64,000 bases of DNA from Thermococcus chitonophagus (GTDB lineage Archaea; Methanobacteriota_B; Thermococci; Thermococcales; Thermococcaceae): assembly GCF_002214605.1 (NCBI RefSeq), contig NZ_CP015193.1, positions 496,001 through 560,000 of the forward strand, in the 5' to 3' direction. Position numbers and translations under genes: made by a program. The notes under the pieces were generated by a model. That model did not search any database. It worked only from the letters and a program-made list of their open reading frames with translations, and had not been told where the DNA came from. Of this stretch, positions 2,260 to 29,738 are shown piece by piece (positions within the stretch are counted from its first letter, which is position 1; the number at the start of each line of letters is the position of its first letter).

Positions 2260-3692
2260 AAAGGACATTACTCTTTACATTTTTGTTACTTATCACTCCT
2301 TATGTGACAGCTCAAAATGCTTGGTGGCCTATAAATACGTCTATCGAGAACATAAATGGGACTCTAATAGTTAAATCTTTAAAAAGTGAGCCCTTTACCC
2401 TTCTTGTTTCTCCCAGATATCCTTTAAATACCAGCTGGAAATTTAACGCTCTTGTTAAAGGGATTAATTTCAACGAGACTTATGTGGAAATAGGGTACTT
2501 CTCAAGTAATGGAACGTTCTTATATGCAACTAAATTTACAAAGATTGGTGAGGAAACCTTTGGATGGATAAATCTCACCGTCATTGCTACTCCTCAAAAG
2601 GATGCAAACTTTACGGCTTTGATGTTTGTTTTTAACGGTTCTGGTACTCTTTTTATCCGAAACTTTACAGCAACTCCTGTAAATGCGAGTTCCCTTAGCG
2701 TGAATTCAACTTTCATTGCTCGCTACCTCTCTTTAACTGATATCCTCCTAGAGCTCAAGCCAAAGAAATACCTGATAGTTAATGAAAGTGACCTTGTAGC
2801 CTTAATAATCCTAAATGGGGAAGAGTACCATCCTGGCGATGAAATAAGGGCTGATTTCTACATAATGAATAAAGTCGGCATTGTGGACGAGGTTGATATT
2901 AAACTCGAGGTTTACTACCATGGAATAAAGGTGTATTCGTACTCACATCCCTCTTGGAGGGAATATTCAGCTGGCAAAATAGTTCACATCTTCCAATCCT
3001 CTAGATTGCCTAGAATAACCCCTCCGGGTAAGTACACGCTGAAGTTCTACATAACCCCTAAGGGAAGAGAGCCTAAGGTTGCCACCACCACAATAGTAGT
3101 TAAGCCTACTCTTTCGTGGTTTGCGATGGTCTTTGTCGCTATATCCTTTATGTTATTGCTAGGAATTGTTCTTGTAAAGGCTCCAAAGTTCATAGAGCCT
3201 GCAGTCTTAGGACTTAAAAAGGCCTACAAGGAGTTTTCAGTTGGACAAAAGTTCGTATTCTATGCAATTGTTGGCCTGATCTTATCAGCTATTGTGCTTG
3301 CATTAGGAGCTGAAAATTATGCAAACGACATCGCAATTGGGGTTTACTACCTATTATTAATTGGAGTCATAAACTTGTGGATTGAGTACTTCGAGCCCAA
3401 ATGGGATAATCCCAATATTAGAACGATCGCAAGTTTTTACTTACTGGCTCTTCTCTTGTATCTCTCCCGTGTCCAGCTGACTATTTATCCCTCAATGATA
3501 TCTCTGGGAATTGGAATATCCTTAAGTGTTCTATACTTACGCTCAAGGCCTAAGAGAAAGCTCAGGGTCATTTACGTATCGAGGAAAGATGGGGAGTTAT
3601 TCATGATTGCTGAGGATGAGGAGTGGAAGTATATGGCGATATCTTCAGGTGATTCGTTTATGCTCGTCGGGAAGAGGAGGGAAGGCAAATGA
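2256..3692 (+). CDS. Membrane protein with large extracellular beta-rich region and C-terminal helices
   Basis: This protein has 478 residues. An N-terminal signal peptide (MKRTLLFTFLLLITPYVTAQ) precedes about 270 extracellular residues rich in N-x-S/T sequons and beta-strand-like segments. Residues about 180-285 resemble an Ig-like or NPCBM-associated domain, with short motifs such as GEEYHPGDEI and PPGKYTLKF. Roughly five membrane helices follow from residue 288, then a short cytoplasmic beta-rich tail. It overlaps both neighbours by 4 nt (ATGA), so it is translationally coupled to the upstream surface protein and the downstream glycosyltransferase. I do not recognise a named family. A role in building or anchoring surface glycans is inferred only from context. 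Confidence 0.8.
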   Translation: MKRTLLFTFLLLITPYVTAQNAWWPINTSIENINGTLIVKSLKSEPFTLLVSPRYPLNTSWKFNALVKGINFNETYVEIGYFSSNGTFLYATKFTKIGEETFGWINLTVIATPQKDANFTALMFVFNGSGTLFIRNFTATPVNASSLSVNSTFIARYLSLTDILLELKPKKYLIVNESDLVALIILNGEEYHPGDEIRADFYIMNKVGIVDEVDIKLEVYYHGIKVYSYSHPSWREYSAGKIVHIFQSSRLPRITPPGKYTLKFYITPKGREPKVATTTIVVKPTLSWFAMVFVAISFMLLLGIVLVKAPKFIEPAVLGLKKAYKEFSVGQKFVFYAIVGLILSAIVLALGAENYANDIAIGVYYLLLIGVINLWIEYFEPKWDNPNIRTIASFYLLALLLYLSRVQLTIYPSMISLGIGISLSVLYLRSRPKRKLRVIYVSRKDGELFMIAEDEEWKYMAISSGDSFMLVGKRREGK

Positions 3693-7219: not shown

Positions 7220-9403
7220 ATGAAGAGGGAAAAGTACCTGCTCATCGGCATCTTAACCCTAGCCATAGTACTAAGGTTGCTGCCATTGAGGTTTAATTAC
7301 ATGCTCGGCTATGATCCTTATTTTCACCTTAAGTACATAGAGTACTCCTTGGAAAAAGGCCAATGGATAAACTTCTTTCCCTACGCCTTCGGTCCTTGGG
7401 GCATGCAGGTTCACAATTACCATCCCCTTGGCCTCTGGATGACCCCCGGTTACCTATCTAAAGTCCTTCATATTTCCCCGGAAGTTGCGTTTAAGTTAAC
7501 TCCCCTGATATTTGGAATTCTCACCTTGGTCTTTCTGTGGTATGGTCTTCGAAAGATGTATAATGATAAGGTTGCCCTACTTGGAACTTTCCTTCTTTCG
7601 GTAAGCTTCGCTCACATAATGAGATCATGTGCTAACTACTACAGGGGAGACAATTACATGCTGTTCTGGTACTCACTCGTGTTCTTGGGGTTTTCCATCA
7701 TGTTTGAAAGGCCAAAAGTAGCTTATCCACTAATTCTGCTATCTCTATCCTTCTCATCGATATTCTGGCAGGCTTATTACCCAATCTTCGTTCTGGCCCT
7801 TGTTAACGCCCTCATGCTCTCGATCTGGGGCTTTCTCTATGGTGATAAAACTACCATTAAGAAGGTAGCAGTCCTTGTAGCGGGAACACTTGGTTCTGCG
7901 GTCTTAGCTGGAATCCTTGGGAGGTACTTTGGTTACGGCATGTTTGGCTACGACAGATCACTTCCAAGACAGTTCACGATCTTTAAGGTTAAGTTCTTAG
8001 GAGATGCATTCTTGACTTACTATATCTTCCTAGCCTTAGCCACAGTTGCCGTTTTAGCCGTAATGCTACTCCTTAAAGAGAGAATGAGCTTTAGAATGAA
8101 AGTGGCCTTTATTGGGGTGCTGGCTCTTGTATCTCTCTTCGTTCTTGGTAAATTTTACTCGGGCCTGAGCACACTATTCAAAGCACTTCCAATCTCTGAA
8201 ACACAGAGGCCTAGCATAGGGGACTTTTGGGAGGCATATGGGCTTCAGATATTTTTAATTCCTCTAGCCGTGCTTAAGTTCAGGAAGCCAGACAAATGGG
8301 ACTTTCTTATTCTGGGCACGGCAATAGCTCTGCTTCCAATGGCCTTTATATGGACGAGGTTCTTCTTCATTGCCTCCATTGCCCTCTCAATGCTTCTAGC
8401 CCTGGGGTTCTCTTCCTTAAAGCTTAAGAAAACTGTGGCAACGGCTGTAGTTACTTTGGTTCTCCTAGCGTCATTCCTCCACGGCTTCTACTACACCTAT
8501 CATTTAAAACCGGAGATGAGCGACAACTGGGAGAGGGCTCTTGACTACCTCGCGAACCACTCAAACGTAAACGATGTAGTTATGGTCTGGTGGGACTACG
8601 GAAACTGGGTGACGTACTATTCTACGAGGGCTCCCGTTGCCCAGATAGGCCCGAGTGCATTCGTCGCGAAGTACTATCTAGGCCTTGTAGGTAATAGATC
8701 CCTCATGGGCATGGGTGTTGACTACGTTATTGTAGCATTGAATTACATCTACAAGTCAAAGGCAATAGTTGAGACTGCGGGGTTAAACCCGAAGACATCC
8801 GGCTACGGTCTTCTGATTCTGTATCCTGCAGGGAGGGAGGGGGGCTACCTGAGGTTCTATGGTGATGGTGTAAATGTTCTCGTCGGAAAGGACTTCATCA
8901 TGACAGTCCATGGCCAGCCGGTTCTTCCCAGGGAAGTTTTCATAGAGGATAAGTCGGGGATTAAAAGCTTTAGAGTGGATCAAAAATCTGATCTGTATGT
9001 TTACGTGAACCTAAACTACAACTACGCCATAGTCACGAACGCAAAAACATTCAACACTCCAATGATAAGACTACTCTTCACCAACGGCACTCCTGGATAC
9101 AAGCTCGTTTACTCGGACGGCGGAATAATCAAGGTGTACAAGTTTGAACATCCAAACGTTGCAGTTAAAAGAGAAGGGAGCAAAATCGTCATGGCATTTT
9201 CGGATCCCGTGGGAAGTAAATTAGTGGTAGAGGGCTTCCTAGATAATGGTACCATGGTCTACAGGAAAGTTTTCAACGTGAAGGGCATGGAAGAACTCTC
9301 CCTCCCCCAGGATTTAAACGGTAGCGTCGTGGTTAGGTATGCATACATAGGAAAGTACGTTCTTGACAGGGGTGTCTTCAGGATAGATGACCTCAAAGGA
9401 TAA
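7220..9403 (+). CDS. aglB: Oligosaccharyltransferase AglB, short form
   Basis: This protein of 727 residues has about 12-13 membrane helices in the N-terminal 425 residues and a soluble C-terminal domain. The invariant WWDYG motif is at residues 457-461, in the sequence VWWDYGNWVTYY. The first acidic motif is GYDPYFH near residue 30, and RGDNYM near residue 140 fits the second acidic, metal-binding loop. The PSIGDFWEAYG segment fits the external-loop-5 TIxE-like motif. The enzyme transfers the lipid-linked oligosaccharide to Asn in N-x-S/T on the outer face. About 727 residues matches the AglB-S class of Pyrococcus, distinct from the long AglB-L paralogue. The flanking glycosyltransferases support a glycosylation locus. 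Confidence 0.95.
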   Translation: MKREKYLLIGILTLAIVLRLLPLRFNYMLGYDPYFHLKYIEYSLEKGQWINFFPYAFGPWGMQVHNYHPLGLWMTPGYLSKVLHISPEVAFKLTPLIFGILTLVFLWYGLRKMYNDKVALLGTFLLSVSFAHIMRSCANYYRGDNYMLFWYSLVFLGFSIMFERPKVAYPLILLSLSFSSIFWQAYYPIFVLALVNALMLSIWGFLYGDKTTIKKVAVLVAGTLGSAVLAGILGRYFGYGMFGYDRSLPRQFTIFKVKFLGDAFLTYYIFLALATVAVLAVMLLLKERMSFRMKVAFIGVLALVSLFVLGKFYSGLSTLFKALPISETQRPSIGDFWEAYGLQIFLIPLAVLKFRKPDKWDFLILGTAIALLPMAFIWTRFFFIASIALSMLLALGFSSLKLKKTVATAVVTLVLLASFLHGFYYTYHLKPEMSDNWERALDYLANHSNVNDVVMVWWDYGNWVTYYSTRAPVAQIGPSAFVAKYYLGLVGNRSLMGMGVDYVIVALNYIYKSKAIVETAGLNPKTSGYGLLILYPAGREGGYLRFYGDGVNVLVGKDFIMTVHGQPVLPREVFIEDKSGIKSFRVDQKSDLYVYVNLNYNYAIVTNAKTFNTPMIRLLFTNGTPGYKLVYSDGGIIKVYKFEHPNVAVKREGSKIVMAFSDPVGSKLVVEGFLDNGTMVYRKVFNVKGMEELSLPQDLNGSVVVRYAYIGKYVLDRGVFRIDDLKG

Positions 9404-9539
9404 TTTAACCTGCCTAGTTTTGTGACAACTTCTCTCAAATTTTTTTGTACAATTGATAAGACTCCTAAGGGCAAGGTATAATAGCTGAGCCTCTAACTTT
9501 CTGGGTGCTGATAATATTACAGCGATTGCCCCTTTTTAA

Positions 9540-15344
<5,805 letters not shown>

Positions 15345-15660
15345 CCCTTTTTCTTTCTCTATTTGAGAGTGGTTATATGGCTTACGTTCTGGAGTAAGCT
15401 TGGAAGAGGAGAAGGTTAGGGGGAGGCCTAGGCTACTAGGTTATCTTTAGAGGTTCCCTATAGGGGGTAAGCTAATTAGGAAGGATAGTTGCGGAGAAAC
15501 TAAGGAACTTCAAGAATTCATCTTGTGAAAAGGTAATGAATGTATTTTTGCATTTGTTCATGATAAAGTGGAGTTCCCGGGTATTCTAAGGAAGAGCCAG
15601 AAATGCTGTAACTCGAAAGACTTAAATTTTGTAATACAGAATTTGCTTATGGTGAATTAC
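15345..15660 (+). other. Non-coding or decayed stretch between nrdJ and vapB
   Basis: This stretch of 316 nt has no open frame with recognisable content in either direction. A T-rich run directly after the nrdJ stop could be its terminator. The A+T-rich segment cttaaattttgtaatac, about 30-35 nt before the vapB ATG, is a likely promoter for the toxin-antitoxin pair. The middle may be remnants of an older gene, but I cannot name one. Confidence 0.4.
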
Positions 15661-15894
15661 ATGACTTCGGTTGTTATAAGCATTCGAATCCCACCAGAGC
15701 TAAAAAGGGAAATGGACAAGCTTAGGGGAGAAATTAACTGGAGTGAAGAGATAAGAGAGTTCATAAAAAGGAGGATAGAAGAAGAGAGAAAGCGAAAGGC
15801 TCTTGAAAGGTTTATAGGCATAGTGAAGACGCTTCCCGAGGCGCCCAGAGGAGCGGCAAAAAATCTCGTGAGGGGGGATCGTGATAGTCATTGA
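15661..15894 (+). CDS. vapB: VapB-type antitoxin
   Basis: This protein of 77 residues is a small, charged protein whose N-terminus (SVVISIRIPPELKREMDKL) fits a ribbon-helix-helix DNA-binding fold, followed by a lysine- and glutamate-rich helix. It should bind its own promoter and neutralise the adjacent VapC. The ATG at 15661 has GGTGA 5 nt upstream; longer in-frame starts lack this site. It overlaps the toxin gene by 14 nt, the usual VapBC arrangement. Confidence 0.85.
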   Translation: MTSVVISIRIPPELKREMDKLRGEINWSEEIREFIKRRIEEERKRKALERFIGIVKTLPEAPRGAAKNLVRGDRDSH

Positions 15895-16297
15895 TACTTC
15901 GGCATTCTCAAAGGTTCTCATTAGGGAAGAGGGCTGGGAGGAAGTAGTTCCCTATCTACAGCCAGAACGAGAACCGTACACGGTAGAGATGCTGATCACT
16001 GAAGCGACGAATGTGCTGTGGAAGTACGTTACTAAGTACAAAGTTTTTGGTAGGGAAAAAGCGGAGGAACTTTATAATGCAATGGTTGAGCTAGTTAAGG
16101 AGGGGCTTCTAATTGTTGAGCCGAATTCAAAGTATCTAAAGGAAGCCCTAAGGATCGCCATTGAAAGAGAAATTGCCGTTTACGATGCCCTTTTTATAGC
16201 TCAAGCGTTAAGTCTCAATGCTCCTCTCGTTACTTGTGATGAAAAGCAGGGGGAAAAAGCCAGAGAGATTGGAGCTGAAGTTATACTTATTAAATGA
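15881..16297 (+). CDS. vapC: VapC-type PIN-domain ribonuclease toxin
   Basis: This protein of 138 residues starts at GTG with a G-rich binding site. PIN acidic residues are present: IDTSAF (Asp5), TEATNVLWKY (Glu), YDALFIAQA (Asp) and VTCDEKQGEKA (Asp). This set of metal ligands is expected for an active Mg-dependent RNase that cuts tRNA, rRNA or mRNA. It is coupled to the upstream antitoxin. Downstream DNA contains gene fragments, consistent with a variable region. Confidence 0.88.
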   Translation: MIVIDTSAFSKVLIREEGWEEVVPYLQPEREPYTVEMLITEATNVLWKYVTKYKVFGREKAEELYNAMVELVKEGLLIVEPNSKYLKEALRIAIEREIAVYDALFIAQALSLNAPLVTCDEKQGEKAREIGAEVILIK

Positions 16298-18247: not shown

Positions 18248-18436
18248 ATGGATAAGAGAAAGGTTTACAGACTGCTCCTCGTTTTGGTTTTGATCCTCAC
18301 CATTGTATACACCTTAAGCATCCTGGGATACCTTCCCTACTTTCCCTACTTTCTAGCTTACTACATCGTAGTGTTCTTCATAGTCTTGTTTCTGGCTCTG
18401 AGGTGGCATGAGAGGCTTAGGGGCTGGAGATTATAA
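18248..18436 (+). CDS. Small two-helix membrane protein
   Basis: This protein of 62 residues has a short basic N-terminus, then two hydrophobic helices (VYRLLLVLVLILTIVYTLSI and FPYFLAYYIVVFFIVLFLAL) and a basic tail. It begins 1 nt after the transporter stop and is probably translated from the same mRNA. It may be an accessory subunit or an independent small protein. No family recognised. Its 3' end overlaps the end of the convergent ATPase remnant by 6 nt. Confidence 0.6.
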   Translation: MDKRKVYRLLLVLVLILTIVYTLSILGYLPYFPYFLAYYIVVFFIVLFLALRWHERLRGWRL

Positions 18437-19490
18437 AGCTTTAGAAATAACTTTCCTTACAACTGGGTCAATTATCCTATATCTCCCCTCTTCTTTCCTT
18501 ATCCATCCCATCTTCTCGAGGTTCTTGAGTAGATTGGCGAGCCGTGAGTTTGGAACTTCTCCAGCTCTCACCTCAATGTATTCCTTTATTAGTTCCCATC
18601 TGTCTAGGCCCAGGGATATTGCCTTAAGGATTAGGGAGTATCTTGGGCTCTTCTTTTCTAACTCTCTTACTTCTCCTATAATCATTGCCTCTGCCTTCCT
18701 GAGCACTTTCTCCATAGCCTCTTCGAAGCTTTTAGTGTGAATGTAGCTGTAGCCGAATTCAACGAGCCAGCCGGGGATTCCGTCAAGGAAGTTAACTGCC
18801 TTTTCTATTTCCTCTTCACTAATCTTCACTCCTGCTTCCTCAAATCCCCTCCTCAAGAACTCCTTAGATAAATCCCTCGAGAAAGGCTCAACTGTGACCT
18901 CCCCGTAAGCCCTTCCGTAAAGTGGGGAGTTGTAGTCATCAATTCCCAGGAAATCGTGTAGCAAACCAACTTCTGAACCTGAGAGTATGAAGGAGAGGCT
19001 CTCAAGATTGTCGTAGGCGTATGCCACTAACGCTAGAAACTCTTTACCACCTCTCGCTCCGTAGAATCTCAGGTATTGAGCTTCATCTATTGCAATTACT
19101 GCCCCTACTTCATTAAGGCTCAGAAAGAGACGATTCTCTGCTCAACTTTATCTCTACTCCCGTTACTTTAACCCCCTCTATTCTTCTAAGGATCTTTGCC
19201 AACTCCTTCCTCCATGTAGGCTTTGTTGCATTTAAGCTTCTTTCTATGGCTTTTTTCAGTGAATTGCTACTTATCCAGCCTCCTGACTCGAAGTAAAGCT
19301 CTCTCGCATCTATGTAAATGCCATTTAGTTCATTTAGGGCAACCTTAAGGATCGATGATTTTCCAATTCTTCTGATCCCTAAAAGCAGGGTTAGAGGGTA
19401 TCTTTTAGTTGCCTCAATTAACTCTTCCAGCTCCTCCCCCCTGTCAAACAACTCCTCTCTTCTTGTTTTTGGCCTCGGATCAAACAGCAT
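18431..19490 (-). pseudogene. Frameshifted archaeal ATPase (PF01637-like AAA family)
   Basis: Two frames together give about 350 residues, the normal family length. The N-terminal part (19490 down to about 19120) starts MLFDPRPKTRREELFDRGEE and carries the Walker A region LLLGIRRIGKSSIL. The C-terminal part (ending at 18431) continues VGAVIAIDEAQYLRFYGARG (Walker B) and HDFLGIDDYNSPLYGRA, then a winged-helix end. The switch of frame lies at about 19115-19140, between helix ends of the two parts. A single-base change or a sequencing error would explain it. These ATPases occur as many paralogues in Pyrococcus and their role is unknown. Confidence 0.8.
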
Positions 19491-20281: not shown

Positions 20282-20297
20282 AAAAATTTTTAATACT
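20282..20297 (+). promoter_or_regulatory. Probable promoter of the cmr operon
   Basis: The segment gcagaaaaatttttaatact reads as a purine-rich BRE followed by a TATA-like element. It lies about 70 nt before the cmr1 ATG at 20365. The whole gap between dph6 and cmr1 is A+T-rich. A start of transcription near 20320 would leave a leader of about 45 nt carrying GGGGGATGG. The operon genes have tight or overlapping junctions, so one promoter may serve all eight. Confidence 0.45.
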
Positions 20298-20364
20298 TTA
20301 ATCTGCAGTATTAGTGGACACTCTTTCCTGTTATCTACATCCTCAAATTTATGGGGGATGGTTA

Positions 20365-21663
20365 ATGTACGAGGTTACGTTTGAATTGGAGAATATTACT
20401 CCCCTTTTCATGCACGGTGCCGACCAGAGCACGGCAGAATTTCGGGCTGCCAGCGTGAAGGGAGTAATGAGATGGTGGTTCAGGGCCTTGGCTGGAAATT
20501 ACTTTGGAGATAACATCTCTGGGCTGAAGAAAGCGGAGTGCAGAATTTTTGGGTGTGCTGAAAGTGAGGTAAGGAAAAGCCTCGTTACTGTAGTAGCTTC
20601 AGCATCTAGCCCCCCAAATGGTTATATTGATAAAACTTCTAATAGCTGGAAAAATGCCATTGCATGGTCTGAGTACGTAGACTACTTCTTCTTTTCGATG
20701 CTCGACAAAAAGAGGGAATCTAATAAGATAAAAATTAAAAGTAAATCAAGTTTCTTCCCGCCACAATCAAGATTCCGAGTTATTCTTAGATCGCCAGATA
20801 GACGAGCGTTGGAACTTGCAGAGGCCTCTCTGCTATTGGCAATACACCTTGGTGGTTTTGGCCTCAGGGCAAGAAGAGGGGCTGGTAGCCTAAAGATCTC
20901 GAAAGTTTCGGGAGATTGCAGTTTTGATGATTGCAACTCTTACGTTGTTGAGACTCCTGATGAGCTGAGAGATATTATTGAGACGATATTGGAATTCAGT
21001 GAGCAGGCACTCGCGGGGCCTGGAGATGAATTATCTCGTACGCCCATTGAAGGGTACCCTAAATATCCTATACTTCATCCTGAGTATGCTGCTGTCTTCG
21101 TGCTTGACCATGAGCGTCCAAAGGATTGGATAGGGGCCTTAGATAATTTTGGGAGATGGTATCTTGGCAGGAAGGCAGGTAGGAAATTTGTGGATGGTTT
21201 CAGATTCAAGTTTGCTGATTATAATCTATCTCATGATCTTAATAGGGGTATAGGAGGCTCCTCAAGCAAGGAAAAAAGATATTACTTAGGGTTGCCCCTT
21301 ATCTATGCAAACTATAAAGTTACCGTTGAGGGCGTGAAAGGAGCCCCCCGTAATTGCCCCAAGGAGAGTGATCGGCTTATAAGAAGAAGAGCTTCTGGTT
21401 ATTGGTTATCTCTGTCCCAATTTGGAGACACAGTATCTCCAGTTGTAACTGTCTTTGCTTATCAGCTGTATCCAGAATATGAAGGAAGGTTCTGCTTTAG
21501 GAAGAAAATTAAGGGGGAAAGGGATAGGATTGGACTAATAACTCTTGAGAATCCGATTTCTCATAGAGCCGAAGATAATGAGGCTGTTGTTAATTTCTAT
21601 AGGGAGAAGTTCATTGGTGATAAAGGTTTAGCTGGATATAAGGTCTGGCCTGGGAGGGTTTAA
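20365..21663 (+). CDS. cmr1: Type III-B CRISPR protein Cmr1 (RAMP)
   Basis: This protein of 432 residues is a Cas7-like RAMP at the end of the Cmr backbone near the 3' end of the crRNA. It starts MYEVTFELENITPLFMHGAD, the family N-terminus, with VKGVMRWWFRALAG soon after, and a glycine-rich RAMP loop, GGFGLRARRGAGSL. A longer in-frame start at 20314 (GTG) lacks conservation; the ATG at 20365 has GGGGGATGG upstream. Cmr2 begins 1 nt after the stop. The gene is more A+T-rich than cmr2 and cmr3. Confidence 0.93.
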   Translation: MYEVTFELENITPLFMHGADQSTAEFRAASVKGVMRWWFRALAGNYFGDNISGLKKAECRIFGCAESEVRKSLVTVVASASSPPNGYIDKTSNSWKNAIAWSEYVDYFFFSMLDKKRESNKIKIKSKSSFFPPQSRFRVILRSPDRRALELAEASLLLAIHLGGFGLRARRGAGSLKISKVSGDCSFDDCNSYVVETPDELRDIIETILEFSEQALAGPGDELSRTPIEGYPKYPILHPEYAAVFVLDHERPKDWIGALDNFGRWYLGRKAGRKFVDGFRFKFADYNLSHDLNRGIGGSSSKEKRYYLGLPLIYANYKVTVEGVKGAPRNCPKESDRLIRRRASGYWLSLSQFGDTVSPVVTVFAYQLYPEYEGRFCFRKKIKGERDRIGLITLENPISHRAEDNEAVVNFYREKFIGDKGLAGYKVWPGRV

Positions 21664-21664
21664 T

Positions 21665-24538
21665 ATGGGAAGACCTTGGGAAGTTTATTCAGATGCATTC
21701 CTAGAAGTTGCTCCTTCAAGGATCCTTGGCTATCTATTGGGCCTCAATGACCTGCCAGAGGAGTGGAAGAAGCTTTCGAGCTATTCCCCTAAGGATTCTC
21801 GCACTTTAACCAAGTTCGTTCTCAAGCATCCAATAAGTACCAAAGAGAAGGAATTAGTGCACCTATCTAAGTTCTGGAGAAACTCCTCACAAAATGAAAA
21901 AGAGGAATTTTTGAATGCACTTAGGAAAGCTGAAGATGATGTTGTCAATAAGCTGAAAAACGCCGGTTCCATGGAGGAGTTCGCGAAGTTGTGGAATAAT
22001 CTGCCCAAGATGCTTAAAGATGCCTACGAGAAAGAACTGAAGCAACTAAACCTAACTCCCGAAATTGCGGGGGAACTAGTTAATCTCCCGGCAGATCCCT
22101 TTGTTCCAGACCATGACTGGCTCAGTAGACTTGACATCTACGCCCAGCTAAAGGCCGGAAATGGAGAGGCAACTCTAGTAAGGTTTAAACTCTCCCCCGT
22201 TCAGGGATTCATAGGCAACGCGAGAACCGAGAGGGATCTGTGGGCGGGCAGTCACATACTAAGCTTCCTCACGTACCTAGCTATATCCAGGCTCTGGAGG
22301 AAGTTTGGCCCAAATGCCATTATAGTTCCCCACCTTAGAGGCCAGCCGTTCTTTGAGCATGAGCTTAAGATACTGAAAGAGAGGGACAAGCTGGACATAG
22401 CTAACATGCCCAACAAAGTTCTCGCGATAGTCCCGGGAACCGTTGATGTTAACGAACTTGAAGAAGAAGTTAGGAACGAGATCAGGGGATTCCTTGAGAA
22501 GTTGTTCCAGGCAGCTTGGAGCTTTTATAAGCTCGGCGACATTTTCGAAGAGGATCCAGTTTATAATGAAACCGTTCGCAACTACTTCTCAATAACTGTT
22601 GAGGCGTTTCCGCTTTCTAAGACTCCTGGCATTGAAAGTGCTCTGAGGAAGTACCTAAGCATTGTCGGTGATAGTAATGAAATCCACTACTACTCTGAGG
22701 TTTTTGCAATTCTCGATCAGCTGACTGACTTTAAGTCTGTGGAGCACTTCCCGCCTGAGCAACCCAAGGGCTTTAAGTGCACACTCTGTGGAGAGAACTT
22801 GGCAGTGGGGGGCAGAGATGAAGAAGACAGCGTCAAACACAGCTGGAATACCCTGCGAAACAAGCTCAGAAGCAGGAGAATATATGATATCAAAGAAAAT
22901 GAGAGGCTATGTCCTCTATGCCTCGTTAAGAGGTTCTATCCGAGGTTCTATTCCCTCTGGAAGGCGGATTACTTGTGGGTGGAACAAACCGCAGAAGGCA
23001 TCTCTGAGAGAGTGGATGAGCGGAGCGATCAGCAGGGGCCAAAAGGCTTCATGTCAGTGAGCGAAGTTGCAATGAGGAGGGTTACGGAGAAATCTCTAGA
23101 CAGGTTCAATAAAGATGAGCTGTTCGTGACAAATGAGTCTGGATCAAAGGTCAGGCCTGTAACGTGGTATGATATTTTCCTCCACCAGCTCTTTTACACG
23201 GGCGCTAGAAGCGAGTGGAGGGGAGAAGTGAAGCCTCCGAAGTTCGGTGGGAGTACAAAACAAGAGTTCGAAGGCATACTTGCTCAGCTTGCAGGCTACT
23301 TAAGGCCCCTGTTCCAAGGGCTTGAGCCGGACTGTGAGGTTTTGTACAAGGATAACTTAAGAAGTGAGGATGCGGTTGCGAAGGTCTTTGGCGTTGATAG
23401 GGACTCGTTACCATCTGAAATTAACTTTGAGGACCTGAAAACTGGGGTATCTAAACTCGAAGATCTGGTAGGTGAGCCTCCCAAGTACTATGGCCTTCTT
23501 AAGATGGATGGAGACAACATGGGTAAACTCCTGAGCGGTACAAAGAGCGTTAAAGACGTTGGCGAATACACACTAGCTGGCGAGGGGCTGGGGGTTAAGA
23601 GGCCCTCAACGCCAACCGTTCACGTGGCAATAACCCGCTCCCTCAGCAACTTTGCGGTGAACCACGTTCCAAAGATATCAAAGGATTATGGTGCTGAGCT
23701 GCTGTATGCTGGTGGTGATGATGTCTTTGCCGTCGCTCCAACTGATACGGTGTTCTCACTAGCTTATGAAATCCAGAAGAAGTTCCGTGAGGACTGGAAT
23801 GGATTTGAGTACCTCCAAGGAAGCAGTAGGAGCATGAGCGCCGGGATTTTGATAACCTACTACAAGGAGCCTCTCTATATAGCGGTGAGAAAGGTTGCGG
23901 AGCTTGAGCATCTTGCAAAGGAGAGCGGTAGAAACGCAGTTGCAATAGGGTACAGGAAGCACAGCGGCACTTACTACTGGGTTGTAGCAAACTGGAGCGT
24001 TTTCTCTGGGGAACACTTGGAGAGTTTCCTTAAAGAAATGAGAAATGGCAAGATAAGCAGGAAGTTGCTTTATGAGCTGGACACTAAGGTATGGCCAAAC
24101 GATCCTCTGGCGGTTTTGAATTTAGTTAAATACGAAGTGTCGAGGCATTCAAGCTATAGAAAGGATGAAAAAGAAGCCCTGGTTGACAGGTTTGCTGAGT
24201 TTCTGTGGATCGTGAGGAACATAAGGGTAAGGATTGCAAGTGGGGAAGTTCCTGGGGTAGATGCGGGGGTAGTTAACGATCTCGTGGCTGAGGTTATAGT
24301 GGATGATCCTGAGAACCCCAACAACGATTCCTTTGAGAAAATAAAACAGGTAGCAGAATCCATATGGCAGAGACGCGATCCCGAAACTGCATGGTTCATT
24401 GAGTTGCAGAATAAATTGGCTCAGGAATTTAGTGAAAAGCAGGCCAAGATAATAGCCGGTCTAGTTTTGAAGAAGCAGGTTTGGGGAGCTTCGGTTCTCC
24501 TCAAGATCCTCCTAGAGGCGGGGTGGGCCTTATGGTGA
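21665..24538 (+). CDS. cmr2: Type III-B CRISPR large subunit Cmr2 (Cas10) with intact GGDD cyclase motif
   Basis: This protein of 957 residues is the signature subunit of the Cmr complex. When target RNA binds it makes cyclic oligoadenylates. The first palm domain contains SPVQGFIGNARTERDLW (about 177-193). A Cys4 zinc site is seen (CTLCGE near 376, then CPLC near 417). The second palm has KMDGDNMGK (about 613-621) and YAGGDDVFA with GGDD at 683-686, so cyclase activity is expected. In the N-terminal region (1-150), no His-Asp pair is found where active HD nuclease domains carry it; only KHP near 54-56 and PDHDW near 148-152 remain. The last 7 residues are encoded across the cmr3 start region. 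Confidence 0.95.
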   Translation: MGRPWEVYSDAFLEVAPSRILGYLLGLNDLPEEWKKLSSYSPKDSRTLTKFVLKHPISTKEKELVHLSKFWRNSSQNEKEEFLNALRKAEDDVVNKLKNAGSMEEFAKLWNNLPKMLKDAYEKELKQLNLTPEIAGELVNLPADPFVPDHDWLSRLDIYAQLKAGNGEATLVRFKLSPVQGFIGNARTERDLWAGSHILSFLTYLAISRLWRKFGPNAIIVPHLRGQPFFEHELKILKERDKLDIANMPNKVLAIVPGTVDVNELEEEVRNEIRGFLEKLFQAAWSFYKLGDIFEEDPVYNETVRNYFSITVEAFPLSKTPGIESALRKYLSIVGDSNEIHYYSEVFAILDQLTDFKSVEHFPPEQPKGFKCTLCGENLAVGGRDEEDSVKHSWNTLRNKLRSRRIYDIKENERLCPLCLVKRFYPRFYSLWKADYLWVEQTAEGISERVDERSDQQGPKGFMSVSEVAMRRVTEKSLDRFNKDELFVTNESGSKVRPVTWYDIFLHQLFYTGARSEWRGEVKPPKFGGSTKQEFEGILAQLAGYLRPLFQGLEPDCEVLYKDNLRSEDAVAKVFGVDRDSLPSEINFEDLKTGVSKLEDLVGEPPKYYGLLKMDGDNMGKLLSGTKSVKDVGEYTLAGEGLGVKRPSTPTVHVAITRSLSNFAVNHVPKISKDYGAELLYAGGDDVFAVAPTDTVFSLAYEIQKKFREDWNGFEYLQGSSRSMSAGILITYYKEPLYIAVRKVAELEHLAKESGRNAVAIGYRKHSGTYYWVVANWSVFSGEHLESFLKEMRNGKISRKLLYELDTKVWPNDPLAVLNLVKYEVSRHSSYRKDEKEALVDRFAEFLWIVRNIRVRIASGEVPGVDAGVVNDLVAEVIVDDPENPNNDSFEKIKQVAESIWQRRDPETAWFIELQNKLAQEFSEKQAKIIAGLVLKKQVWGASVLLKILLEAGWALW

Positions 24539-25539
24539 TGGAGATCTTCCCAAATGACGTTCTAATGTTTAGGGAAAGCAGGGAGTTTTCCGCCGGCGAG
24601 TACCATGTTGCCGTGACTAGAGAACCACTACCTCACACGATAGCGGGGGCAATTATGGCAAACCTCTACCTGAAAGGAGGAGTTGACTTAATAAACTACA
24701 ACAGTGATTTAAAACGGTGGAAGCCTGGGTTCTCAATTCTCGGTGTTTTCTTCGCTAAAGGCGGTAAACCACTATTTCCTCTTCCCAAAGATCTTGTAGC
24801 TATTGATAACGGCGTAGTTTATCCCCTCAGGCCCAGGGAAGTTTTGGGCAGAGTTATAGTAGTTGCCAAAAGTGAAGGTAATGAAACCCTCAGATTTAAG
24901 CCCGCCGGAGGCTTTCTAACGTTAGATGCCCTTACCCGCTACCTAGCTGGGGGTAGTGGGCCATTTAATCCCGTACCTACTGGGGATGTATACGTATTGG
25001 AGGAGCGCGTAGGCATTGGCATCGATAGGGACAGGAGGGTTGTGGTGGAGGGCCTGCTGTACCGTACTGTAAACCTGAGGGTCAGGGAGGGAGTCTCGCT
25101 CAAAGTGTACTTTGAAAGGGGTGAAGACAAAGTTAAGGGGATCATCGAGGAGAAAGGCATGCTTAGGCTGGGAGGTGAGTCCAGGTTTGCCACGTACAGG
25201 TTCAACGGAGATGAGTTTCCGGTGAAAGTTAATGATAGGGAGAGTCGTCTTATCCGCCTGTACTTTGCGACACCTTTAATTCCCGGAGGTGGCATTAGGG
25301 AAGTTTTAAAGGAACTGAAAATCAAGGGAAGAATTCTGAAAATATTTACGGGAAGGAAAATTGCCGTAACCGGCTGGGACATGAAGGCTAAAATGCCCAA
25401 AGAGACTCTCTACGCGTATCCACCTGGAACCGTGGTCTGGGTTGAGGCTGATGAACCCGTTAAGATTGGAAAGCCACTGAAGGCAGGCCTCATGAAGGAG
25501 TTTGGTTACGGACTAGTTCTTCCAGGGGTGATGGGGTAA
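24538..25539 (+). CDS. cmr3: Type III-B CRISPR protein Cmr3 (RAMP)
   Basis: This protein of about 333 residues is a Cas5-like RAMP that pairs with Cmr2 and holds the 5' repeat tag of the crRNA. Family features include the start MEIFPNDVLMFRESREFSAG, the HTIAGAIMANLYLKG segment near residue 40 and the C-terminal glycine-rich KEFGYGLVLPGV. I chose the ATG overlapping the cmr2 stop (TGATG); an ATG 6 nt earlier is also possible, and an open frame further upstream lies inside cmr2. Its stop overlaps the start of the next gene by 1 nt. Confidence 0.92.
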   Translation: MEIFPNDVLMFRESREFSAGEYHVAVTREPLPHTIAGAIMANLYLKGGVDLINYNSDLKRWKPGFSILGVFFAKGGKPLFPLPKDLVAIDNGVVYPLRPREVLGRVIVVAKSEGNETLRFKPAGGFLTLDALTRYLAGGSGPFNPVPTGDVYVLEERVGIGIDRDRRVVVEGLLYRTVNLRVREGVSLKVYFERGEDKVKGIIEEKGMLRLGGESRFATYRFNGDEFPVKVNDRESRLIRLYFATPLIPGGGIREVLKELKIKGRILKIFTGRKIAVTGWDMKAKMPKETLYAYPPGTVVWVEADEPVKIGKPLKAGLMKEFGYGLVLPGVMG

Positions 25540-26528
25540 TGGGCGTGTACCATATTTCTGGCCTGGGCCTTAGCCCGGGAGCCCTAACAATGCCCCTTAC
25601 GTGTGTGTACATCCTCCAGGTGGCGGCAAGGTTTGGGCATGAGGAGGCAAGAAAGTTCTTTGAGCTCTCCGGAGAGGCCCCCAGAAAGGGGAGCTATGAG
25701 AAGCACAAGGGTGAGCCTGAGGCTATAATAGTTCTGGACTCTAAGGAGGCCATAGAAGGTGGGCTACCCCTTAGGTACGAATCTCGCTGGTTCAAGATGC
25801 AGTCTAATGGTAAGGAGCCGATTGAAAGGCCTATCGTGAAGTACATATGCAAGCTTCTCTCGCACCTAAACGGCATCCTGGAGAAGGAAGGACTTGACGC
25901 TATAAGTCTCCCTAAGTACCTATATTTAGTTACCGTTGACTATCAGGACTTTGAGAATGCTTTAGATACTGCCGGAGCTCTGCTCCTTGGATTTGAGAGG
26001 AAAGAGGTGTGGGTTAACCTGATCGGAGGCTCGAACCAGCTAAACTTAGCTTTGATGATAGCCGGTGATTACACGATGATTCCAGCCAGATACTATTATG
26101 TCTTTCAAAATTCGAGCAGGCTGGAACCAGAGTGGCTAGATAAGCTCCCCAGGAAAAGAGAAGACTTCATGAGGTCTGCAGATATAATACTGAATCGTTG
26201 GTACGATCTGCCTCCCCTAAACCTGGGCTACGGGGATATTCTGAGGAGGTTAATTGATGAATTTAGCTACAGGCAGGTAATCTCGAGAAGCGAGCTGGAG
26301 CAGATAATAGCGGACGCTGGTTATGGGAGGCCCAGCGAATTCATTCCAAAGCTCATCAGCACCAGATACATTGTTCCCCTTGGAAAAGACGTCTTCGGTG
26401 CAGGAGGAATGCTTGAACGTGTGAAAACGCTGTTTGAAAAAATCGAGGAACACAGGAAGAATCTGAGAAATATGGACATCAGGAGGTACCTCGGAGATAA
26501 AATGAAGGAGGTTGAGTTCTCATGCTGA
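25539..26528 (+). CDS. CARF-domain protein with probable winged helix, CRISPR accessory
   Basis: This protein of 329 residues sits between cmr3 and csx3. The N-terminal region (about 1-185) fits a CARF domain: an opening beta strand with GLGLSPGAL, and later VWVNLIGGSNQLNLALMIAG, where the glycine-rich GGSNQ is the usual ligand-binding loop for cyclic oligoadenylates. The C-terminal half (about 220-290) resembles a winged helix (ISRSELEQIIADAGYGRPSE, then a wing-like IVPLGKDVFGAGG). No HEPN R-x4-6-H motif is found, so it is unlikely to be a standard Csx1/Csm6 RNase. It may be a ligand-controlled DNA-binding regulator, as in Csa3, or an uncharacterised effector. The ATG overlaps the cmr3 stop. 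Confidence 0.7.
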   Translation: MGVYHISGLGLSPGALTMPLTCVYILQVAARFGHEEARKFFELSGEAPRKGSYEKHKGEPEAIIVLDSKEAIEGGLPLRYESRWFKMQSNGKEPIERPIVKYICKLLSHLNGILEKEGLDAISLPKYLYLVTVDYQDFENALDTAGALLLGFERKEVWVNLIGGSNQLNLALMIAGDYTMIPARYYYVFQNSSRLEPEWLDKLPRKREDFMRSADIILNRWYDLPPLNLGYGDILRRLIDEFSYRQVISRSELEQIIADAGYGRPSEFIPKLISTRYIVPLGKDVFGAGGMLERVKTLFEKIEEHRKNLRNMDIRRYLGDKMKEVEFSC

Positions 26529-26821
26529 AATTTAAAACAGTTGAGCTTGAAGAATTCACTGTAGTTCATTTTGAAATAGATGGGATTCTTGAGCCTAAGG
26601 AGCTGAAGTCTCTTAATCCACCAAAAGTTAAGGCAAATAAGGGAGTAGTTCTCAGCGGAAGGGGCCCAATATGGCTCTACGCCTTTCTCGTTCACCACTA
26701 TCATCCGGTCGCTTGGGTCGGTACTTATGACCCCAGGATTGGAGTCGTAGTTGTTGAATCACATGTTCCTGGAGTTGAGCCTGGTGACGTTTATCAACTC
26801 AACATAGAGGAGGTGCTCTAG
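26522..26821 (+). CDS. csx3: Csx3/Crn3 ring nuclease
   Basis: This protein of 99 residues has the full length of the Csx3 family. Conserved features are LSGRGPIWLYAFLVHHYHP and AWVGTYDPRIGVVVV. His61, Asp70 and Arg72 correspond in position to the catalytic residues reported for Archaeoglobus Csx3 (His60, Asp69, Arg71). The family was described as a cyclic tetra-adenylate ring nuclease (Crn3) that switches off the type III signal. It overlaps the CARF gene by 7 nt and ends just before the cmr4 ATG, so it is expressed with the complex. Confidence 0.85.
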   Translation: MLKFKTVELEEFTVVHFEIDGILEPKELKSLNPPKVKANKGVVLSGRGPIWLYAFLVHHYHPVAWVGTYDPRIGVVVVESHVPGVEPGDVYQLNIEEVL

Positions 26822-27706
26822 ATGTATAAGGAGGCGTTGGTTCTCGGGTTGTATTCCATAACTCCTGTCCACGCAGGAAGTGGGGCCGAGCTGAGTGTTA
26901 TTGATCTGCCAATTCAGAGGGAGCGCCACACCGGCTTCCCAACCATATGGGGCCAAAGCCTTAAGGGAGTGTTGAGGAATGCATTTGAGAAGGAGGACAA
27001 GGATAAAGGAGTGATATACTCTATTTTTGGACCAGACACGGAGAGAGCAAGTGAACACGCAGGTGCAATTTCAGTAGGAGATGCGAGGATACTGCTATTC
27101 CCGGTGAGGAGTGCTAGGGGTGTCTTTGCCTATGTTACATGTCCTATGGTTCTGGAGAGGTTTAAGAGGGACATGGAATTTGCTGGGAGGAGTGATATTG
27201 CAAGCTTTAACATTCCTGAGGTTGTTAAAGATGGGAAAGCGTTGGTACATAAAGACTCGATACTCACAATAAACAGGAACAATAAAGCTTTAGTCGTGTT
27301 AGAAGATCTCCTCTTGACTGCTGAAGAGAATGACTTCTCACAGATTATCGATGCAATAAAGAAAATTGTTCCAGACGGCGTAGATGATCTGGGGAAGAGG
27401 CTTGTCATAGTTAGCAACAACGTATTCAGTGCCTTTGTTAAGTTCTCCACGGAGATAGTCGCTAGAATAGCCATAGACCAAAGCAGAGGTACAGTTAAGG
27501 AGGGTGGCCTTTGGTACGAGGAGTTTTTACCTGCGGATACCCTTCTATACTCGATAATAGCAATATCCGAGCCTAAAGGAGGCTCATTAAAGGATGCTGG
27601 GATGGTTAAGAGGGAACTCCAGAGCTTCTTGGATAGCAAGAAGTACCTTCAGGTTGGTGGGGATGAGACCGTCGGAAAGGGCTTTGTAAAAGTAAAGGTT
27701 CTCTGA
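26822..27706 (+). CDS. cmr4: Type III-B CRISPR protein Cmr4 (RNA-cleaving RAMP)
   Basis: This protein of 294 residues is a Cas7-like backbone subunit present in several copies, which cuts the target RNA every 6 nt. The N-terminus HAGSGAELSVIDLPIQRERH matches the Cmr4 signature; Asp28 corresponds to the catalytic aspartate reported for P. furiosus Cmr4 (Asp26). The next segment WGQSLKGVLRNAFE is the usual RAMP contact. The C-terminus has the glycine-rich LQVGGDETVGKGFVK. It starts directly after the csx3 stop. Confidence 0.94.
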   Translation: MYKEALVLGLYSITPVHAGSGAELSVIDLPIQRERHTGFPTIWGQSLKGVLRNAFEKEDKDKGVIYSIFGPDTERASEHAGAISVGDARILLFPVRSARGVFAYVTCPMVLERFKRDMEFAGRSDIASFNIPEVVKDGKALVHKDSILTINRNNKALVVLEDLLLTAEENDFSQIIDAIKKIVPDGVDDLGKRLVIVSNNVFSAFVKFSTEIVARIAIDQSRGTVKEGGLWYEEFLPADTLLYSIIAISEPKGGSLKDAGMVKRELQSFLDSKKYLQVGGDETVGKGFVKVKVL

Positions 27707-27716
27707 GGTGGTGTCC

Positions 27717-28154
27717 ATGGACATCAGAACGCTTGAGCAGAAGAGGGCAGAGTTTGCTTACAATAAAGTCCTTGAGGTAAGGGGAACGAGCGAGGAGATT
27801 CAGAAGAAGTATAGGTCTTACGTTAGAAGCGCGCCTACCCTGATACTAACCAATGGCTTGGGCCAAACCTTAGCATTCTATCTTTCGAAAATTGGGAATT
27901 CTAATGGGGACTATGAAGAAATAAATCTTAACGACTTAAAAAAGGCTGACCAGAAGGCCTATGCCTACCTCTACAAGCACATAGCGGAGTGGCTTGATGA
28001 GAAAATAATTCACAGCAAGAACCCTATTGAATACTATACCAGAGCAAGCTCGACAGAAGTTTTAACGCTAACTGAGGAAGTCATTGCCCTCCTCAAGTGG
28101 ATGAGGCGTTTCGCTGATGCCATGCTTAAAGGGGACGAGCGAGGTGAGGAATAG
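27717..28154 (+). CDS. cmr5: Type III-B CRISPR protein Cmr5
   Basis: This protein of 145 residues is the small all-helical subunit of the Cmr complex. Family features include RTLEQKRAEFAYNKVLEV, YVRSAPTLILTNGLGQTLAF and the C-terminal LLKWMRRFADAML. I chose the ATG at 27717, preceded by GAGGTGG; an in-frame GTG at 27708 is less likely. The end overlaps the GTG of cmr6 by 1 nt. Confidence 0.92.
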   Translation: MDIRTLEQKRAEFAYNKVLEVRGTSEEIQKKYRSYVRSAPTLILTNGLGQTLAFYLSKIGNSNGDYEEINLNDLKKADQKAYAYLYKHIAEWLDEKIIHSKNPIEYYTRASSTEVLTLTEEVIALLKWMRRFADAMLKGDERGEE

Positions 28155-29161
28155 TGGCTCCACTGTACTTCCTCTCCAGGGATCTCCTTTCAGTCCTTAG
28201 GGACAGGGATGGCAAAATCACACTGCGAACTGTAGACAATCTCTCCCTCCTTCTCAACAAATTTGCCCCCTTTTTAGAGGAGAATGGACTAAAAACTGGA
28301 GGAAAAGCCTTGAAGAGGGTGCTTAAGAAGATAGTAATTCCGAAATACTTGGTCAGAACTTACAGAGATTTTTACAAAAGGTACAAAGATGAGTTTTTGG
28401 AGTCGATTGACGCTAAATGGGGAATTTTAGCAACTAAGTCAAGGCTGGTCGTTGGCCTAGGAGATGAGAGCATCTATGAAACGAGCATAAGGCTCCTGAG
28501 AAACTACGGCGTTCCATACATTCCTGGATCGGCAATAAAAGGCGTAACAAGGGCTTGGTCAATTGAAATGCTGGCAGAATTACTTGAAGGTGCTGATGGA
28601 TTTAGTAAGGATTTCTTTGAGAGGGCAGGGGAAGTTCAGGAATTGCTCTCTAAGGGGGACGCAGATGGATTTCCTGGTAAAGTCAAAGTGCCCAGTCACG
28701 CAAGTGGAGAACTTAATGAATTTCTTTGTGCTTTTGGTGTCTGTAATGATTCTGAGAGCGATGTTAATCTCAGGGGAATAGTTAGGGATATCATTGATAT
28801 ATTTGGGACCCAGGACAAGGAAGGTAGTATCGTGTTCTTTGATGCCTTGCTAGTTCCAAGAGAAGACGAAGGGCCAATGGATGTATTTGAGTGGGACATA
28901 ATGAATCCCCACTATGGGCCATATTATCAGCAGGATAACAAGCCTCCAGGAGATTGGTATAATCCTGTTCCCGTGATATTCCTTACAGTGAAGAGTGGAG
29001 TTCAGTTCTTGTTTGCCGTTGCACAGTCATCAACAGCCGAGAAGAATCTCACTGAAGTTGCGTGGGAGTTAATGGTTGGAGCACTAAAGCATCATGGTGT
29101 TGGTGCAAAAACTAGCCTTGGATACGGTCGTTTTGAGGAGAAAAGTAAACAAAACCAGTGA
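28154..29161 (+). CDS. cmr6: Type III-B CRISPR protein Cmr6 (RAMP)
   Basis: This protein of 335 residues starts at GTG overlapping the cmr5 stop. It is a Cas7-like subunit at the 3' end of the backbone. Features include YETSIRLLRNYGVPYIPGSA followed by IKGVTRAW (RAMP signature), then DIFGTQDKEGSIVFFDAL, and the C-terminal glycine-rich HGVGAKTSLGYGRFE. It is the last gene of the operon; no cas6, cas1 or cas2 follows. Confidence 0.93.
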   Translation: MAPLYFLSRDLLSVLRDRDGKITLRTVDNLSLLLNKFAPFLEENGLKTGGKALKRVLKKIVIPKYLVRTYRDFYKRYKDEFLESIDAKWGILATKSRLVVGLGDESIYETSIRLLRNYGVPYIPGSAIKGVTRAWSIEMLAELLEGADGFSKDFFERAGEVQELLSKGDADGFPGKVKVPSHASGELNEFLCAFGVCNDSESDVNLRGIVRDIIDIFGTQDKEGSIVFFDALLVPREDEGPMDVFEWDIMNPHYGPYYQQDNKPPGDWYNPVPVIFLTVKSGVQFLFAVAQSSTAEKNLTEVAWELMVGALKHHGVGAKTSLGYGRFEEKSKQNQ

Positions 29162-29662: not shown

Positions 29663-29738
29663 TGGTAGCCCCGCCGGGATTCGAACCCGGGTCGCGGGAT
29701 CCAAAGTCCCGCATGCTTGGCCGCTACACCACGGGGCT
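29663..29738 (-). tRNA. tRNA-Gln (anticodon TTG), CCA encoded
   Basis: The minus strand folds into a complete cloverleaf of 76 nt including the encoded CCA. The acceptor 5' strand is AGCCCCG and the 3' strand CGGGGCT with discriminator A. The anticodon stem-loop is CGGGA-CTTTGGA-TCCCG, with anticodon TTG reading CAA. The T arm has CCCGG-GTTCGAAT-CCCGG. A box A-like AAGTTTAAAAGG lies about 30 nt upstream on the same strand. Confidence 0.95.

Follow-up and report, generated by a model that had tools for sequence, protein, structure and literature searches.

A HEPN-less CARF–winged-helix protein and a Csx3 ring nuclease as a candidate cyclic-oligoadenylate signalling cassette in a type III-B operon of Thermococcus chitonophagus

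A complete type III-B operon with the gene order cmr1-cmr2-cmr3-[CARF-wHTH]-[csx3]-cmr4-cmr5-cmr6 was identified by open reading frame and profile searches at positions 20314–29161 of a 64,000-nucleotide stretch of Thermococcus chitonophagus DNA (hereafter 'the window'). We hold with middling confidence that this operon is a self-contained cyclic-oligoadenylate (cOA) signalling cassette, in which the 329-residue protein carrying a CARF domain and a winged helix (wHTH) would serve as a cA4 effector that has no HEPN domain and works by contacts of another kind. The first-pass annotation of this DNA had proposed that signal, reader and off switch are encoded together. That part of the proposal stands, with a cyclase-type Cas10, a CARF protein free of a HEPN domain, and Csx3 all present, whereas the part that cast the reader as a DNA-binding transcription factor does not hold up well.

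The coordinates, lengths and order of the genes given by that annotation all agree with our reading frames and profiles (Table 1), and cmr1 through cmr6 and csx3 all score above the NCBIfam cut-offs. The listed GTG start of cmr1 at 20314 is less likely than a later ATG near 20365. Tight or overlapping junctions, as had been described, are seen on all sides of the two additional genes: the first base of the CARF-wHTH gene is also the final base of the cmr3 stop codon, the end of that gene overlaps the start of csx3 by 7 nt, and cmr4 starts at the base directly after the csx3 stop codon. No CRISPR array was seen in the 64,000-nt window. A minus-strand tRNA-Gln(TTG) gene (29663–29738) lies just downstream of the operon, and the stretch between cmr6 and this tRNA gives no alignment in two sister genomes. 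Two adjoining minus-strand reading frames (198 and 125 aa; 18431–19490) look like one split archaeal ATPase gene. In a related locus (L013, genome G003), cmr1 at 1792–3117 is only 42% identical to that of the window, whereas the promoter and the cmr2-to-csx3 region are 88–96% identical, which points to an allele swap of cmr1 alone.

Table 1. Features of the type III-B operon, in window coordinates.
Feature	Position	Strand	Basis
cmr1	20314..21663	+	TIGR01894 85 bits, cut-off 28.65
cmr2/cas10	21665..24538	+	TIGR02577 291 bits; PF22335; GGDD at residue 683; N-terminal HD motif absent
cmr3	24538..25539	+	TIGR01888 177 bits
CARF-wHTH protein, 329 aa	25539..26528	+	PADLOC profiles, AF2 model, fold search
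csx3/crn3, 99 aa	26522..26821	+	TIGR02579 and PF09620 above cut-off; cA4-specific ring nuclease family
cmr4	26822..27706	+	TIGR02580 277.5 bits
cmr5	27708..28154	+	TIGR01881 119 bits
cmr6	28154..29161	+	TIGR01898 199 bits
Inverted repeat TAATACT-N9-AGTATTA, perfect	20291..20313	.	Promoter region; candidate operator, a lead only

The earlier assignment of a CARF domain and a winged helix to the 329-residue protein was confirmed by PADLOC profiles, by an AF2 model and by fold searches. Profile PDLC01864 (CARF3--CARF) matches residues 1–329 with an E-value of 5.3e-137 and is matched by all 18 homologues. A second profile, PDLC01427, named 'Csx1', likewise spans the protein from end to end (2.9e-110). 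Since a profile with this name fits a HEPN-less family, automated pipelines would call an RNase where there is none. The protein gave no match above cut-off in Pfam or NCBIfam, and PDB searches with one sequence and two profiles gave no CARF match at a useful E-value. Structure prediction, which had been suggested as a check, nevertheless yielded the CARF fold (model m2e1da5f12366; pLDDT 87.5, pTM 0.83). This model, built from 18 homologues, replaced one built from 11 sequences that had an unfolded N-terminus and mostly winged-helix matches. It comprises a CARF domain (residues about 1–228, with an insertion at about 45–125), a winged helix (about 230–289) and C-terminal helices (290–321).

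Nearly all top matches of the model in Foldseek and VIA searches are CARF proteins. The CARF domain alone is matched best by Card1, Can2 and Csa3 (Z 11–12.5, rmsd about 3 over 120–135 residues), and residues from about 229 to 305 match winged helices (Z up to 9.1, rmsd 2.7 over 67 residues). All 25 columns that are invariant among the 18 homologues fall at or before residue 197, several of them in ligand-pocket loops and none in the wHTH; a GGSNQ sequence occupies residues 163–167. A HEPN active site was not found in the protein, whereas ten Csx1 controls all carry RNFxAH. The sole R-x4-6-H sequence, R49...H56, is not conserved and falls within or next to a loop modelled with low confidence. 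The earlier statement that the HEPN motif is missing is thus upheld, and the suggestion that the reader is not an RNase is borne out for RNases of the HEPN type. Distant homologues have the motif N-x-S-x-W-K-x-W ... I-L-x-E in common near the C-terminus (alignment A2); the genus to which the window belongs has it only in eroded form, at residues 311–324 (window 26469–26510).

The gene order proposed for a survey across relatives recurs in 9 of 94 Thermococcaceae genomes, and csx3 lies directly downstream of the CARF-wHTH gene in all nine. Eight of these loci are type III-B, with the pair between cmr3 and cmr4, and one (L016) places it at the end of a type III-A csm operon. Only two of the 85 genomes without the CARF-wHTH gene carry csx3 (G004 and G073; Fisher 5e-11, indicative only because the genomes are related, most counts come from kin and the p-values are descriptive), and in both cases CARF-PIN and/or CARF-HEPN effectors are nearby. 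Among Thermococcaceae III-B operons that do not have the cassette, eight hold a CARF-HEPN Csx1 of 476–523 aa (CARF9) in the slot between cmr3 and cmr4, including the second III-B operon of T. chitonophagus (L026). The slot is therefore occupied by Csx1 in eight operons, by CARF-wHTH plus csx3 in eight, and by both in none; the exceptions are csx3 alone in G004, a small reading frame in G050, and G086, where no intact cmr4 was found. The small frame (95 aa; L160, 6913–7197) has a weak likeness to Csx3 (E 9e-6) that PADLOC profiles did not confirm, and is possibly a decayed Csx3. In a type III-A locus of T. chitonophagus beside I-B genes (L025), a csx1/csm6-type CARF-HEPN gene is split between 8426–8782 and 8843–9544, and is probably broken.

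This exchange with Csx1 places the CARF-wHTH protein in an effector role. The two proteins have in common the cmr3-cmr4 position, a CARF domain followed by an HTH, and the presumed role of cOA reader, but the CARF-wHTH protein is without HEPN and has no detectable sequence relation to Thermococcaceae Csx1. Compared with locus L014, the CARF and Csx3 proteins are 57 and 79% identical, whereas cmr1 to cmr3 reach 37–39%, and hence the pair behaves as a cassette. Relatives at 28–36% identity are spread over several further lineages of archaea, and most of them lie in type III loci. A contig scan with a single-sequence query gave no matches, while an alignment query gave four loci, two of them from new lineages; no relatives were found in viral contigs and plasmids.

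By its sequence, the csx3 gene of the window encodes a bona fide Crn3 ring nuclease. It scores 114.7 bits against TIGR02579 (cut-off 55.4) and matches A. fulgidus AF_1864 in the PDB at 1.4e-27. The A. fulgidus residues S44, G45, R46, I49, H57, H60, D69, R71 and H80 are all kept, offset by +1, so the two family members have every catalytic residue in common. The catalytic-site counterparts here are H58, H61, D70, R72 and H81; this alignment and the profiles agree with the His61, Asp70 and Arg72 named in the first-pass annotation. Csx3 next to uncharacterised CARF proteins has been published (PMC7371418, Figure 1A legend). In contrast to the CARF neighbours of AF_1864, the CARF protein described here is a HEPN-less CARF-wHTH protein that replaces Csx1 in a fixed slot and whose gene overlaps csx3.

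Among more distant homologues, the ring-nuclease partner is exchanged. One (L020) adjoins a Crn1/APE2256 gene (TIGR02619 2e-33; PDB 3qyf 1.8e-18), another (L049) has a Crn1/Csx14-like gene 9 nt upstream, and a third (L044) has two Csx14-like genes nearby, the scores in L049 and L044 being below curated cut-offs. In L021, L040 and L043, csx3 lies upstream of the CARF gene rather than downstream, and no adjoining ring nuclease was recognised for the distant homologues in L041, L042 (near a contig end) and L050. Because several homologues without csx3 sit beside other predicted ring nucleases, the CARF-wHTH protein is probably the reader rather than the off switch. Crn1 and Csx3 both act on cA4 (PMC12409355, PMC7371418), from which we infer that cA4 is the ligand and that the CARF-wHTH protein is not its main eraser.

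The GGDD motif of Cas10 reported earlier is present. A feature that had gone unmentioned is that this Cas10 does not have the N-terminal HD nuclease motif, which is kept by the HD-positive Cas10s used for comparison, two others from T. chitonophagus. Loss of HD is seen in 10 of 10 testable Csx3-positive loci, with GGDD kept, versus 9 of 31 others (p 8e-5), although HD loss is general in one clade of Thermococcaceae Cmr2 and common in III-B systems also without the cassette, so that the III-B counts weigh little and only two III-A cases are independent. The remaining 22 of the 31 Csx3-negative Thermococcaceae Cas10s have HD, as HDPPDK or HDxGK. Within type III-A alone, HD is lost in both Csx3-positive loci (LLPLGR, LLHSIGR) and in none of 20 others. 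The Csm1 with the LLHSIGR variant, in which HD has become HS, is encoded in two reading frames (L096 in G073, 13613–16055). Loss of HD with retention of GGDD suggests output through cOA, and the window operon apparently acts only by RNA cleavage and signalling, judging from these motifs. The combination of an intact cyclase, no HD and no known effector has been used to find new effectors (Hoikkala 2024, PMC11229360).

We consider it rather unlikely that the protein is a Csa3-like transcription factor whose CARF-wHTH dimer binds its own or other promoters in a cA4-dependent, ligand-controlled manner. A wHTH fold is predicted, a catalytic domain is lacking, and Csa3, a type I-A-linked protein, has the same domain order and CARF fold (Z 11.3); the PADLOC clade CARF3 also includes Csa3-type models. 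The profile likeness is weak, with HFX_2341_N matched by 13 of 18 homologues and Csa3_N by 6 of 18. The HFX_2341 match (PF19810; best 1e-4) is below the curated cut-off and confined to the GG-loop region of the CARF domain, and we know of no CRISPR link for that family. Against Csa3 profiles, PF22662 gave 12.4 bits (cut-off 27), and TIGR01884 gave no match at E-values up to 1; an hhalign comparison with Csa3 came out at a probability of 13.5%, which favours neither reading. The Csa3 motifs T-h-G-F-(N/D)-E-x4-R and L-x2-G-h-R (PMC8699464) are absent: the corresponding positions read ISGLGLSPG and LIGGSNQ, whereas Csa3 proteins of relatives keep GFDEKF...R and LSGGMR. In Csa3a, conserved wHTH surface residues are mostly on the DNA face (PMC8699464), whereas no recognition-helix residue, nor any other wHTH residue, is invariant here. 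The mean net charge of the wHTH is +0.9, compared with +6.2 in Csa3 (Mann-Whitney 7e-7), although a near-neutral charge may still be compatible with a basic face. The wHTH also evolves fast, with a wHTH/CARF identity ratio of 0.58–0.75 (near-identical sequences left out) versus about 1.0 in 18 Csa3 proteins of relatives at comparable divergence (CARF identity of at least 40%). Unlike Csa3, moreover, the protein sits in type III operons beside ring nucleases. These observations, of which those on charge and conservation are indirect tests of DNA binding, weaken the regulator proposed in the first-pass annotation. A wHTH fold need not mean DNA binding: an HTH region also separates CARF from HEPN in Csx1 (PMC9704534), and a wHTH forms the C-terminal end of the ring nuclease SSO1393/Sis0811 (PMC10018336). 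The palindrome in the promoter region is a candidate operator, with one perfect match in each of three cassette-bearing members of the genus and none in six members without the cassette. However, it represents one inherited site in three related genomes, is matched by 21% of equal-length random Markov sequences, and was not found in the Thermococcus loci examined; with only one perfect site per genome, no regulon was seen.

When the whole chain is compared, the closest fold is that of SSO1393/Sis0811 (Foldseek E 6e-8; VIA Z 10.8, rmsd 4.8 over 202 residues), which has the same build of CARF followed by winged helix. This would fit a helper of Csx3, another ring nuclease or a buffer for cA4, which would bind that ligand and cut it slowly in the manner of Crn1. 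This role is improbable in our judgement. The Crn1 catalytic lysine (Sis0811 K169 in a GLK motif, placed from alignment numbering and equated by the GG-loop motif) is replaced by Asn166, invariant in 18 of 18 homologues; identity to SSO1393/Sis0811 is about 19%, the PADLOC clades differ (CARF3 versus clade 7), and neither the NCBIfam Crn1 models nor TIGR02619 match. Members of the family also have genuine ring nucleases of different types as neighbours, and loci with two ring nucleases make up only about 4% of ring-nuclease-positive loci (PMC12409355). Very improbable is a Csx3 accessory subunit, with translational coupling matching the production of the two proteins and the CARF protein delivering or gating cA4 for Csx3 filaments. 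The overlap or tight junction between the two genes is kept in Thermococcaceae loci, and the pair is found in both III-A and III-B backbones, but homologues pair with Crn1- or Csx14-like genes in place of csx3, and A. fulgidus Csx3 is active on its own (PMC7371418). An inert remnant of Csx1 that has lost its HEPN domain would account for the PADLOC label PDLC01427 and for the CARF-HTH-HEPN order of Csx1 (PMC9704534), yet we regard it as extremely improbable. The homologues used have uninterrupted reading frames and strongly conserved CARF domains across several archaeal lineages, and the idea of a truncated Csx1 was dropped when comparison with the local CARF-HEPN Csx1 gave no BLAST match and an hhalign profile-profile probability of 0.3%.

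Under the HEPN-less effector reading that we favour, target RNA would activate the HD-less Cas10, whose remaining catalytic output, judging by its motifs, would be the cyclase; the product would be cA4, as suggested by the cA4-specific partner ring nucleases. The CARF-wHTH protein would then act as receptor and effector in the slot and role of Csx1, with a non-HEPN output. Its wHTH and C-terminal helices may pass on the motion that ligand binding causes in the CARF dimer, either to a partner protein or, with no recognition of particular bases, to nucleic acid; binding to an operator in the manner of a classical regulator would not be its role. Csx3, whose translation begins in the overlap, would degrade cA4 and reset the system. 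Counting against a HEPN-less effector, the protein has no visible activity or catalytic motif, and a wHTH as the only output domain is unusual; the candidate operator at the promoter and the distant homologues with no recognised ring nuclease beside them also speak against it. A CARF-PIN gene is found within a few kb of the cassette in G042 and G061, and cA4 made here could act through such proteins or through the Csx1 of the other T. chitonophagus III-B operon.

Tentatively, the proteins described here may form a new type III effector family, namely HEPN-less and nuclease-less cA4 receptors that are paired, in operons with an HD-less Cas10, with a ring nuclease that can be exchanged, and that confer immunity through the winged helix by protein capture or by shutdown of a host machine. 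The existence of PADLOC profiles for the CARF family and the Csx3-CARF neighbourhood (PMC7371418) are already known. Our literature search found no paper joining 'CARF-HTH' with Csx3, nor any that describes a CARF-wHTH protein as a replacement of Csx1, exchangeable ring-nuclease partners or the link to HD-less Cas10.

New cOA effectors have been discovered where an active cyclase is accompanied by neither an HD nuclease nor a known effector, and here the candidate is singled out by gene slot, partner exchange and predicted structure. The proteins are thermostable and should purify easily. If the CARF-wHTH protein regulates transcription, a type III operon would contain a CARF regulator together with the off switch for it; if it does not, the protein would be an effector in which no catalytic domain can be recognised. 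In both cases, databases that label it Csx1 predict the wrong activity.
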